A stretch of 39,393 bases of DNA from Patescibacteria group bacterium (GTDB lineage Bacteria > Patescibacteriota > Minisyncoccia > Moranbacterales > SCTJ01). Below the pieces are notes generated by a model. That model searched no databases. It was not told the DNA's origin and saw only the letters and a program-made list of their open reading frames with translations. The stretch is taken from assembly GCA_004297805.1 (NCBI GenBank), contig SCTJ01000084.1, positions 1 through 39,393 of the forward strand, given 5' to 3'. Both the position numbers and the translations under genes were made by a program. How positions within the stretch are numbered: position 1 is the first letter of the stretch; each line of letters starts with the position of its first letter. Shown here one piece after another: positions 17,434 through 32,733 of this stretch.

Positions 17434-17452
17434 CGAAGATTGTCTTACTTCG

Positions 17453-17539
17453 CGGAGAGGCAGGGATTCGAACCCTGGAGGGGATTTCTCCCCTAACACA
17501 TTAGCAGCGTGCCGCTTTCGACCACTCAGCCACCTCTCC
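17453..17539 (-). tRNA. tRNA-Ser (anticodon GCU)
   Basis: An 87-nt class II tRNA. The acceptor stem pairs GGAGAGG with CCTCTCC, with G as discriminator. The T arm contains GGGTTCGAATCCC, the long variable arm is GGGGAGAAATCCCC, and the anticodon loop is CTGCTAA, giving GCU (serine AGC/AGU codons). CCA is not encoded (CGA follows the discriminator). The 5' 39 nt are also the 3' end of the GIY-YIG reading frame. Confidence 0.95.
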
Positions 17540-28280: not shown

Positions 28281-30380
28281 TCAGTCGCCGGCGCCTCCTC
28301 CACCGGATCGTCCGCCACCATACTTGAATCCACCAGGAGAATTGTTGTGACTACTGCTGGACCTACGAGTCGCTTCGGCCGCCCGCTCAGCCGCTTCTCG
28401 CAGCAGTCGCAGGCGATCCGCTTCGGCCTGTCTGGCTTCTGCCTCCCTTCTCTCTTTGGCCGCCTTAATCTCGCGCTCAGCCATCTTGATCACCTTGTTG
28501 AGCAGCGTTTCAGCGTTGGTCAGTAGTTCAACAGCTGTGATCCAGTCCACCAGCTCGCCCTGCGAGAGCCGCTTGGCCTCGACGATCATGCCGGCAGCCG
28601 CACTCAGGTCAATGGCGTGACTGCTGCTGACATCCGGGGCAGAAGCGATAGCCTCAGCGTTCCCCAGTACGCTTTGGACTCTCGCGAGCACGCCGGGGAA
28701 ATTCGTCTTGGCGTCGGCGATCTTGCGCCGGACCTCATCGATCCGAGCAAAGAACTGGCGAACCTCGCCCAGTTGCCGTCCGACCTCCTCCACTTCTTTC
28801 CTGGCCGCCTCGAACTTCTGGGCTTCCATCGCGTTGGCCTGTTCGGCCCCAACCAACTCAGTCTCGATTTGCTCCAACAGTTCGCCGGTCATCAGCTTGA
28901 AGGTCTGATCGAGCATGCCCCAGACCGATCGCGGAGTCTCCTGCTCGATCTGCTCGAGAATCCGCCTGACCGTCAGTTGATCCTCGATCACGCTCTGAAG
29001 CGTGGTCCGATGCCGCTGAATAACCGCGTCAGTCTCTTTCCGAAAATCCGGAAGAGCTTTGAGTTGCGCGACCACACTGGCCGACGACTCGGCCAATTTG
29101 ATGGCCTCCTCGATGACCGGCCGCGGATCTTCATTGGCCTGGAGCAGACCATCGAACTTCTTGAAGGTCGCCGGCAGTTCAGCCACCTCCGCCTCCCGAA
29201 GCGCTTCCGAACGATAGCCTTCCGAGCGGAGCGCGTTCGTCACCTGGATCCACTCGGCAAATGCTTGCCGGGCTGCGGCCACCTTGTCCGCCGCCAGCTT
29301 CTTCAGCCGCTCGATTTCCCGTGGCCAGCTCTCGATGTTTTGTTGGATTCGTTGGGCCCACTGGATCGCAGATCGCACCCGCGCCATCTGCTTGAGGTTA
29401 GCGTCGAGGGTCTTGGCATTTCTCCAGTCGGAATCGAAGACGGTCAGAAATTCCGCTTCGGCTTCCTTGACTGCCTTCTCCAAATCGGCAGCCGTCTTTT
29501 CCGCGCCGGCCCTGACCCAGGACGGATAGTCTTTATACTGCGCGAAATTGACCTGGTAGCCCCGGAGGTGGTCCAGTGACTCCTTAAACTCCGTAATGAG
29601 GACGTTCAGCTCTCGCCTTTTCTCCTCTCGCTCCTTTCGTTCACGCCATTTCTTGCGAAGAAACCACACGAACCCGTGGAGGATCAAGTACAGCACCACG
29701 CCAACCAGGACACTCTTGATCAGAAACCAAATGGTTTCGGCTTGCTCTTTCTCGCGCTGCCGTTGAAGCTGATGCTCTGCGATTTCCGCCTGAAGCCGCT
29801 TCGCCTCTGCCTCCCTTTCTTCCGGAGAGAGCTGAACGACGGGCTTAGGAGCGACCTCGACCGCTTGCGCCGGCACGATCGTCGCAAGCACGTCATCAAC
29901 CACACCCTCGACGCTCTCGGCGATTTTCCCCTGATCGAATGGCACACGGTTGCGCCTCAGGATCTCGCCGACCTTGGAATCCGGCAAAACTCCTTCCAGT
30001 CCGTATCCGACTTCCACCCAGCGCAGCCCCTTTCCGCCGCTTTTTCCCGGAACATCGGTGGCAATGAGAATCAGGATGCCGTTGTCTCTGCCGGCTTTTC
30101 CAATCCCCCATTTATGAAACAGTTCCTCGGCGTACGCGCTGATCTCCTCTCCTTGGAGCTTGAGAACAACCGCCACGACCACCTCGTTCGAAGTCTTGGC
30201 CTCGTGGTCGTCGAGCTTCTGTTCCAGACGATCTCGAGCCTCACCGCTGAACACGCCGGCGAAGTCGTTGACCATACGCCAGCCAGACGCGTCCGTTTGC
30301 GGATCGGGATACGTTACTGCAAAACTGGGCACAGCTCCAAGCTGCACCAACACCAACAGTAGCGGCAACAGCTTTCTCAT
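28281..30380 (-). CDS. TPM-domain (TLP18.3/Psb32/MOLO-1) membrane protein with long coiled coil and Gly-rich tail
   Basis: A 699-residue protein. Residues 1-21 form a signal peptide (LLPLLLVLVQLGAVPSFA). Residues about 35-170 are a TPM domain (VNDFAGVFSGEARDRLEQKL, NEVVVAVV, GRDNGILILIATD, VEVGYGLEG). A helix at 217-241 crosses the membrane, so the TPM domain is outside and the remaining 450 residues are inside. Those are mostly charged coiled coil ending in a Gly-rich tail (GGGRSGGGGAGD), like YgcG proteins. AGGAG precedes the ATG. A perfect TTGACA-N17-TATAAT promoter serves the gene. G+C is high (33 of 60 in 28861-28920), unlike most neighbours. Function unknown. Confidence 0.85.
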   Translation of the reverse strand: MRKLLPLLLVLVQLGAVPSFAVTYPDPQTDASGWRMVNDFAGVFSGEARDRLEQKLDDHEAKTSNEVVVAVVLKLQGEEISAYAEELFHKWGIGKAGRDNGILILIATDVPGKSGGKGLRWVEVGYGLEGVLPDSKVGEILRRNRVPFDQGKIAESVEGVVDDVLATIVPAQAVEVAPKPVVQLSPEEREAEAKRLQAEIAEHQLQRQREKEQAETIWFLIKSVLVGVVLYLILHGFVWFLRKKWRERKEREEKRRELNVLITEFKESLDHLRGYQVNFAQYKDYPSWVRAGAEKTAADLEKAVKEAEAEFLTVFDSDWRNAKTLDANLKQMARVRSAIQWAQRIQQNIESWPREIERLKKLAADKVAAARQAFAEWIQVTNALRSEGYRSEALREAEVAELPATFKKFDGLLQANEDPRPVIEEAIKLAESSASVVAQLKALPDFRKETDAVIQRHRTTLQSVIEDQLTVRRILEQIEQETPRSVWGMLDQTFKLMTGELLEQIETELVGAEQANAMEAQKFEAARKEVEEVGRQLGEVRQFFARIDEVRRKIADAKTNFPGVLARVQSVLGNAEAIASAPDVSSSHAIDLSAAAGMIVEAKRLSQGELVDWITAVELLTNAETLLNKVIKMAEREIKAAKERREAEARQAEADRLRLLREAAERAAEATRRSSSSHNNSPGGFKYGGGRSGGGGAGD

Positions 30381-30540: not shown

Positions 30541-30579
30541 AAAAAAACCGCCCTCAGCCGGCTGGCGAATGGCGGTTTT
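30541..30579 (-). terminator. Intrinsic terminator of the candidate ncRNA
   Basis: Minus strand AAAACCGCC and GGCGGTTTT pair over an 18-base loop region (itself GC-rich), followed by seven T, a G and five more T. A strong signal in this orientation. Confidence 0.88.
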
Positions 30580-30722
30580 CATTGACTTCCACAGTCCCAT
30601 CCGCAGTGGCATCCTTTCCTAAAAATTTAGGATTAAATGCGCTTAATCTACTTGCGAAACCTAAGGAGGATGGTTCGCGTTCGACTGCGAACAGGACTGC
30701 GAAAACCAATTTTCAATGCAAC
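30544..30722 (-). ncRNA. Candidate structured non-coding RNA, about 180 nt
   Basis: A near-consensus promoter (30728-30756) and a strong terminator (30541-30579) delimit a transcript with no convincing reading frame. Internal pairings include GGTTTTC (30707-30701) with GAAAACC (30580-30574), CAGTCC with GGACTG, a GTTCG-CAGT-CGAAC hairpin, CATCCT with AGGATG, a GATTAA-GCGCAT-TTAATC hairpin and CCTAAA-TT-TTTAGG. Size, strong promoter and end-to-end pairing are what a 6S-like RNA would show, but no conserved motif of 6S, SRP, tmRNA or RNase P RNA is recognised. The outer stem overlaps the 5' arm of the terminator, so an attenuator-like switch is an alternative. Confidence 0.6.
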
Positions 30723-30727
30723 GGTCT

Positions 30728-30756
30728 ATTGTAGCACCAATCTACTGGTTTGTCAA
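30728..30756 (-). promoter_or_regulatory. Promoter of the candidate ncRNA
   Basis: TTGACA (30756-30751), 17-bp spacer, TACAAT (30733-30728) with extended -10 TGC. The spacer holds an ACCA...TGGT inverted repeat. Confidence 0.83.
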
Positions 30757-30820: not shown

Positions 30821-32605
30821 TTATTTTTTACGCTGTGCCCGTACTCGATCAATTTCGGTCAAATATTGCTTGCGCAACCGAACGCTTTTGGGTGTCACTT
30901 CCAAATATTCGTCTTCAGCCATAATTTCCAAGCCACGCTCCAAAGTGATGAGAAGTGGTGGGATAAGCTGCAAGGCATCATCAGTTCCGGAAGAACGCAT
31001 GTTGGTCAATTGCTTACCCTTGGTTGGATTCACGGTCATGTCGTCCCCCTTCGTCACATTGCCAATAACCATGCCATTGTAAACTTCCGTGGCTGGACCA
31101 ATATAGAGTACTCCGCGCTCTTGCAAATTGGCCAATGAAAATCCGAGCGTCTTGCCGTTTTCACCAGAAACCATTGAACCCACATCGCGCCGCTTGATCT
31201 CGCCCACATAGGGTTTGAAGCCGATGAAGCGACTGCACAGAATTCCCTCGCCCCGCGTATCAACCACAAATTGATTGCGGTAGCCCAAGAGTCCCCGCGT
31301 CGGAATTTCAAAAAGCATCCGGACTTGGCTGCCGTGGTTTTCCATGTGCGTCATAATCCCCTTCCGTTTGCCCATCTTCTCAATCACCGCGCCAGAAGAA
31401 ACGCTCGGCACATCAATCGTAGCTTCTTCGAACGGTTCCACTTTTTTCCCAGCTTCTTCTTTGATGATTACTTGCGGCTGTGAAACTTGCAGCTCAAATC
31501 CTTCCCGCCGCATATTTTCCAAGAGGATAGCGATGTGCATTTCTCCTCGGCCATAAACTTTGTAGTGATCCGTGGAAGAAAAATCAACCTTGAGTCCCAC
31601 GTTGACTTCCAGTTCTTTCTCCAGACGTTCACGAATCTGACGGTTAGTCACAAACTTGCCCTCTCGACCCGCAAACGGCGAGTCGTTCACAAAAAAGTCT
31701 AGCGAAATAGTCGGCTCATCCACCTTGATCGCCGGCAACGCCTCTTGATCCTCGGCAGCGCAGATTGTTTCACCGATATCGATATTTGGGAAACCAGCCA
31801 CAATCGCAATGTCGCCCGCCAATACTTCTGCTGTTTCTTTGCGTTGCAATCCTTGAAAAGTGAAGAGCTTGGTCACCTTGCCTTTGTCTGATGTGCCATC
31901 GGGCCGCTTGATCACCACGTTGTCTCCCATTCTCAGTGTGCCTTCATAAATCCGCACGATGGCCAAGCGACCCAGGAAATTGTCATAGGCCAAATTGAAA
32001 GGTTGGGCGCGTAGGGGCGCTTCAATGTTAGCCTTGGCCGGAAGCACTCGATGCAAAACCATTTCTAAAAGCGGCGTCATGTCCGTTGAATAATCATCCA
32101 AATGATTTTTGGCAATCCCATCCCGGCCAATGGCATAGATCACTGGGAACTCCAGTTGTTCATCGTTGGCCCCCAAATCCAGAAATAATTCAAAGACTTT
32201 TTCCTGAGCCATGTCTGGATCGGCCGCCGGCTTATCAATCTTATTCAAAACTACGATCGGCTTGAGACCCAGTTCCAAAGATTTTTTGAGCACAAAACGA
32301 GTCTGGGGCATCGGCCCTTCCTGGGCGTCCACCACCAAGATAACGCTATCAATCGAGCGCAGCACCCGCTCCACTTCACTCCCAAAATCCGCATGGCCCG
32401 GCGTGTCCACGATGTTAATTTTCGTGTCTTTATAGGGCAGCGAGGCATTTTTGGAATAAATAGTGATTCCTCGCTCCTTTTCCAAAGCGTTGGAATCCAT
32501 ACTCACCCCCTCTTCCACCATGCCCGATTGCTTCATCAAGCTGTCCGTAATGGCCGTTTTGCCATGGTCGACGTGAGCGATAATAGCGACGTTGCGAATT
32601 TCCAT
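30821..32605 (-). CDS. typA: Ribosome-associated GTPase BipA/TypA
   Basis: A 594-residue translational GTPase. The start at 32605 ([17 protein letters not shown]) is the family start; the frame is open 37 codons further but that stretch contains the promoter and a terminator. G1 is AHVDHGKT, G3 DTPGHADF, G4 NKID, with ERGITI in switch I. Domains II and III are followed by the BipA-specific C-terminal domain ([18 protein letters not shown]). TypA acts on 50S assembly and stress adaptation. It has its own promoter, 5' leader and no good Shine-Dalgarno site. Confidence 0.96.
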
Positions 32606-32625
32606 ACCGTTGCTAGCTAATTCAA

Positions 32626-32651
32626 ATAAAAAAACTGCCTGTCTCTGGCAG
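32626..32651 (-). terminator. Terminator hairpin inside the typA leader
   Basis: Minus strand CTGCC-AGAGACA-GGCAG followed by seven T, between the typA promoter (start near 32669) and the ATG at 32605. An upstream GGCA in the same leader could pair with TGCC as an antiterminator. It suggests attenuation of typA. Confidence 0.6.
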
Positions 32652-32675
32652 CCACCCCTAGTTGCCCTAATACAA

Positions 32676-32704
32676 TGTATAGCAGGAAACGCTGTTTTCG
32701 TCAA
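32676..32704 (-). promoter_or_regulatory. Promoter of typA
   Basis: TTGACG (32704-32699), 17-bp spacer, TATACA (32681-32676) with extended -10 TGC. Its -35 lies 29 bp from the -35 of the divergent hydrolase promoter. Confidence 0.7.
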
Positions 32705-32733
32705 TGTAGCTCGCATTAAATACTGTTATGAGG

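Follow-up and report, generated by a model that had tools for sequence, protein, structure and literature searches.

A free-standing gene for a conserved structured RNA of Patescibacteria that displays the anti-Shine-Dalgarno sequence in a hairpin loop

Patescibacteria account for a large part of bacterial diversity, and our literature searches returned no description of small RNAs in this group. What, then, does a promoter make that fires into roughly 180 nt of apparently non-coding sequence and is closed by a terminator, between two genes to which it does not belong? The locus lies in a window of 39,393 nt (the whole stretch of DNA analysed here), which is the entire contig C71 of a 1.40-Mb draft genome and whose sole Rfam match is a tRNA-Ser (GCT) at 17452-17539 on the minus strand. 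A first-pass annotation, made from the letters alone, had described a near-consensus promoter with an extended −10, a stretch without a convincing ORF, a strong closing terminator and a downstream gene with a perfect promoter of its own. All four elements were recovered (Table 1), on the minus strand, which that annotation had left unstated, and the RNA contains no ORF of 80 aa or more. A scan returned 4 promoter-like sites against 1.6 expected and 3 terminator-like sites against 3.4 expected, which is near chance when taken alone; it is the fold and the conservation of the RNA, and not these sites by themselves, that raise the unit above chance. The unit encodes a structured non-coding RNA of Patescibacteria and stands as a gene of its own, for which no transcript data are available.

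Table 1. Features of the RNA unit and its neighbours, in window coordinates
Feature	Position	Strand	Basis or remark
Promoter TTGACA-N17-TACAAT, extended −10 (TG)	30728..30756	-	11/12 consensus bases; −35 TTGACA 30756-30751, 17-nt spacer, −10 TACAAT 30733-30728, TG one base upstream
Predicted RNA transcript, ~180 nt	30541..30722	-	start inferred from promoter, end from terminator T-run
P1 closing stem, 5' strand, ~26-27 bp	30684..30710	-	fold; 26/26 modelled P1 pairs with compensatory changes
P2 hairpin	30654..30678	-	fold and covariation
P2 loop AUCCUCCUUA	30662..30671	-	CCUCCUU 30669-30663 = 16S anti-SD
Conserved P2-P3 junction strand AGUAG-A-UUAAGCG	30640..30652	-	homolog alignment
P3 hairpin with distal stem	30609..30640	-	fold and covariation
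P1 closing stem, 3' strand	30582..30608	-	fold and covariation
Intrinsic terminator, 9-bp stem + T7	30541..30579	-	sequence and fold; arms AAAACCGCC...GGCGGTTTT, then T7
Upstream neighbour, TypA/BipA GTPase (typA), outside unit	30821..32716	-	
Downstream neighbour, TPM-domain protein gene, outside unit	28281..30380	-	own 12/12 promoter, TTGACA 30526 to TATAAT 30498

The complementary segments of which the stretch had been said to be full do form a stable structure. The window RNA folds at −75.9 kcal/mol, compared to −48.7 ± 4.3 kcal/mol for dinucleotide shuffles (z = −6.4, with none of 200 shuffles as good), and at −77.3 kcal/mol (z = −6.7) when the full T tail is included. Its elements follow one another as the P1 rod, a three-way junction, P2, a single strand and P3, which leads back into P1. 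This architecture is constant among the homologs described below, with a rod of ~26 bp, the three-way junction, a P2 hairpin with a CCUCCU(U) loop, an AGUAG joint and P3; the length of P1 is roughly kept and its sequence drifts, and a second conserved patch after the P2 loop, AGUAG-n-UUAAGCG, lies between P2 and P3. A 12-nt-period repeat, also reported at first pass, is present as letters, with TTCGCAGTC occurring twice (30703-30695 and 30691-30683), but does not hold as a feature: the repeat belongs to the 5' strand of P1, homologs do not preserve it, and we therefore regard it as incidental. Pairing of the CCUCC loop with AGGAU of P3 into a pseudoknot was rejected because AGGAU is not conserved. 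Two homologs (L005:1361-1565 and L051:1490-1688) carry an extra long hairpin, starting with CCCCC(A/U)CACCAAU, inserted in the P2-P3 junction.

Conservation in relatives, together with compensatory changes under a covariance model, had been set at first pass as the test of the proposal, and the RNA passed both. By nucleotide search, relatives were recovered from several families of the window's order (Candidatus Moranbacteria). Seven of them served to build a first covariance model (R1), which detected the RNA in 34 of 131 Moranbacteria genomes, with E-values down to ~1e-28. With a second model (29 copies) and strict filters, copies were found in 17 of 384 genomes drawn from the class, with six of the 17 in other orders, and in 5 of 380 genomes drawn from the phylum, four besides the window's own genome; the class and phylum counts are lower bounds, the strict filters having been applied above 40 genomes. 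A third model (R3), run with looser filters, extended the finding to additional families of the order, and in this search several other families of the order had no detectable copy, which implies that the RNA is not indispensable or has diverged beyond detection. E-values from covariance models are rough throughout. Confirmed copies come from Candidatus Moranbacteria (Moraniibacteriota), other Patescibacteria MAGs and uncultured bins. The RNA is real at the level of sequence and strongly conserved across Patescibacteria, including classes beyond its own, with its expression untested. Pattern matches in Rickettsiales, Lachnospiraceae, Nitrincola, Chloroflexi, Pontibacter and Metabacillus were due to chance (0 of 6 confirmed by the model), and five weak R3 matches (L095, L097, L098, L100 and L102) were not believed, with the loop missing or the fold wrong. 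One draft genome (G105) holds two copies, on contigs C2 and C38, one of them at a contig end, so that either a genuine duplication or an artefact of assembly may account for the pair.

Across 38 homologs, every one of the 43 modelled base pairs showed at least one change on both sides, and 94.8% of cells paired, compared to 70.3% in shuffled alignments and 42-50% with the partners slid. As this alignment had been fitted to the covariance model, the analysis was repeated on a sequence-only MAFFT alignment, in which predicted pairs accounted for 22 of the top 50 covarying column pairs (of 8256), where ~0.3 would be expected. The modelled pairs contained 250 G-U cells versus 12 A-C cells, an asymmetry that decides the transcribed strand, and an exact TTGACA with a fitting −10 stands upstream of 37 of 41 homologs, two of the remaining four being at contig ends with incomplete upstream sequence. 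Transcription of the opposite strand, with TAAGGAGG as the SD of a dprA leader, is ruled out by the same asymmetry and by the promoters.

The single long invariant stretch of the RNA is the P2 loop, which the first-pass annotation had missed along with the pth/dprA synteny described below. CCUCCUU is present in 29 of 29 homologs of the order, and CCUCC followed by U is kept in 11 of 11 distant ones; CCUCCU lies wholly within the hairpin loop in 38 of 41 folds, and the mean unpaired probability of the loop motif is 0.91. The 16S rRNA of these genomes ends in GGATGGATCACCTCCTTTCT (tail GGATCACCTCCTTTCT), and the CCUCCU(U) of the loop is thus a copy of the anti-SD tail. An unpaired anti-SD conserved in a hairpin loop is what marks an aSD-loop small RNA, as do a promoter and terminator independent of any one neighbour, and the RNA has both, with a terminator that is clear in the window and several other loci, not in all. 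We know of no aSD-loop small RNA built on a rod and a three-way junction. The functional class itself is already known: the trans-encoded SmelA075 and SmelA099 of Rhizobiales carry aSD hairpin loops of sequence CCUCCUCCC, and S. aureus RNAIII, CyaR and AbcR1 are further small RNAs with such loop sequences (PMC3927594). SmelA075 and SmelA099 resemble the present RNA in displaying the aSD in a hairpin loop that is fixed on stems that vary (PMC3927594), but they have three or four CCUCCUCCC hairpins, a requirement not met here, where a single CCUCCUU hairpin sits on a three-way junction above the ~26-bp rod; they also belong to a different phylum, with no sequence relation and no Rfam match. RNAIII, CyaR and AbcR1 likewise have a loop that is single-stranded and can base-pair with ribosome-binding sites, although their architecture is unrelated and their loops have defined targets.

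In four genomes (G000, G012, G040 and G619), a strong SD precedes 11/283, 7/152, 6/132 and 11/156 genes, above control windows of the same genes, i.e., only ~4-7% of the genes sampled, and leaders are A-rich instead; these counts are approximate, with the first ATG taken as the gene start and only part of each genome (165-426 kb) sampled. In the host genome, an Exo_endo_phos-family gene (L152:2783-3499, contig C22 of G000) carries CUAAGGAGGAU immediately upstream of its ATG, a sequence perfectly complementary over 11 nt to the loop region, which is a single case found post hoc; the longest loop complements at start sites in G012 and G040 were 7 and 8 nt, near controls.

The strand, the fold, the phylum-wide conservation, the promoter and the identity of the loop with the 16S anti-SD are observed; for expression, abundance, targets and partners there are no data, and every functional reading is an inference. 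Our preferred reading, to which we assign a probability of about one half, is that the RNA acts in trans, its aSD loop pairing with the minority of mRNAs led by an SD. The rigid rod and the junction would keep the P2 loop open, the loop would pair in the cell with the SD of such mRNAs in competition with the 30S subunit, and their translation would be repressed or held back. Given how few genes have a strong SD, the RNA would be a selective switch on this subset of mRNAs rather than a general block of translation. The wider proposal, that this is an ancient, phylum-wide RNA of Patescibacteria that presents the 16S tail sequence on a rigid scaffold and acts as a global regulator of a small class of SD-led mRNAs, is possible but held only tentatively; if true, it would make the RNA a type of global translation regulator without a described counterpart, in bacteria in which most genes lack an SD. 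The RNA may also explain why the SD signal is retained on only a few genes, and with its candidate contact in the anti-SD loop, its fixed architecture and its pth/dprA address it offers a testable entry to RNA regulation in Patescibacteria.

The invariance of the loop would fit a binding site for a protein just as well, which is a caveat to pairing with mRNAs. In its explicit form, the P2 loop would mimic the 3' end of 16S rRNA and titrate or recruit a protein that handles this tail, such as a ribosomal protein or a factor of ribosome maturation or hibernation, without pairing to any mRNA. The invariance of the loop across the phylum is stricter than that of most antisense seeds, and the lack of an SD on most mRNAs weakens a general role in mRNA pairing, both of which would suit a protein partner. 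Set against this, the RNA has not retained GGAUCA, the upstream part of the tail, and has AUCCUCCUUA or ACCCUCCUUA instead, so that a factor reading GAUCA would not be imitated, and no partner protein has been identified. We consider such mimicry rather unlikely.

The genomic address bears on the choice between action in trans and in cis. Downstream of the RNA, pth is found in 34 of 41 loci, always convergent, with an LCP-family gene next in 16 of them; upstream, and always divergent, are dprA in 12 loci and topA in 7. Different classes share this address, which points to vertical inheritance from an early Patescibacterium. The address also leaves room for a cis role, in which the RNA would act either as a leader that hides, with its loop, the SD of an ORF downstream, or as an antisense RNA and convergent terminator for pth. 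The frequent convergence with pth fits the latter, and ~10 loci have a co-directional small ORF with a strong SD 3' of the RNA, though strong SDs are rare otherwise. These ORFs are mutually unrelated, however, and many loci have a terminator or only the convergent pth after the RNA. A cis leader or riboswitch should have a homologous gene consistently downstream on the same strand, and this is not met, same-strand ORFs being absent or unrelated and pth being convergent. Furthermore, the window copy has moved next to typA, and four other copies (L026, L029, L030 and L036) also lack a pth neighbour; all keep the structure and the loop, which argues for action in trans and leaves a cis role improbable in our judgement. 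The small strong-SD ORFs directly downstream on the same strand (L005, L024, L025, L033, L035, L038, L046, L051, L053, L054 and L056) include an HTH_3 protein, a CDP-alcohol phosphatidyltransferase and short membrane proteins.

A further alternative concerns the identity of the RNA rather than its mechanism. The first-pass statement that the unit belongs to no recognisable RNA class agrees with an Rfam 15 scan of the window and ~30 homolog loci, in which no family fell over the RNA at gathering score or even at E ≤ 10. The RNA could still be the published LOOT motif, a functionally orphan family whose hosts are Latescibacteria, OD1, OP11 and TM7, a range of candidate phyla that is similar to and overlaps with the one seen here. 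LOOT has ~43 base pairs in six helices (PMC7657543), close to our 43 modelled pairs but not to our four modelled helices. The absence of any Rfam 15 match among the homolog loci is a second point against identity, with the reservation that the presence of LOOT in Rfam 15 is only presumed from accession order (int-alpA RF02996, Lacto-phage-1 RF03004, Mu-gpT-DE RF03012). We consider identity with LOOT unlikely, though it has not been ruled out directly. Our covariance model finds the copies of the order mostly at E-values far below 1e-10, and Rfam-based annotation has no such model at present.

6S RNA needs a central bubble open on both strands, and SRP RNA a GNAR-capped domain IV with two internal loops. 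That the RNA is a hidden 6S or SRP RNA of the group missed by standard models, a suspicion nourished by the failure of the 6S model (RF00013) to match anything in 28 genomes of the order (5 of 14 controls being positive) and of the small and large SRP models (RF00169 and RF01854) to match anything in 15, is very improbable, since neither the window RNA nor its homologs match these models even weakly (for RF00013, not at E ≤ 10), the 3' side of the junction has only 0-1 nt and P1 is continuous with no bubble open on both strands, the GNAR tetraloop and internal loops of domain IV are absent from P2 and P3, and an SRP motif search over the genomes gave chance level. The length of ~180 nt, which had been noted as fitting 6S RNA, does fit, as do the long closing stem and the strong promoter of its own; without homology, and with a different architecture, 6S lacking the invariant aSD hairpin, the similarity in length is coincidental. 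As for the order itself, its genomes (15-28 searched, G000-G027) yielded neither 6S RNA nor, with the small and large Rfam models, SRP RNA, and the SRP domain IV motif was at chance; SRP RNA in the order is very divergent or lost. Regarding the 16S rRNA, CCTCCTTTCTAGGGAG is conserved directly past its tail, 3' of the 16S gene (L082-L087); by folding into a hairpin, it could conceal the anti-SD while the 16S rRNA is still a precursor.
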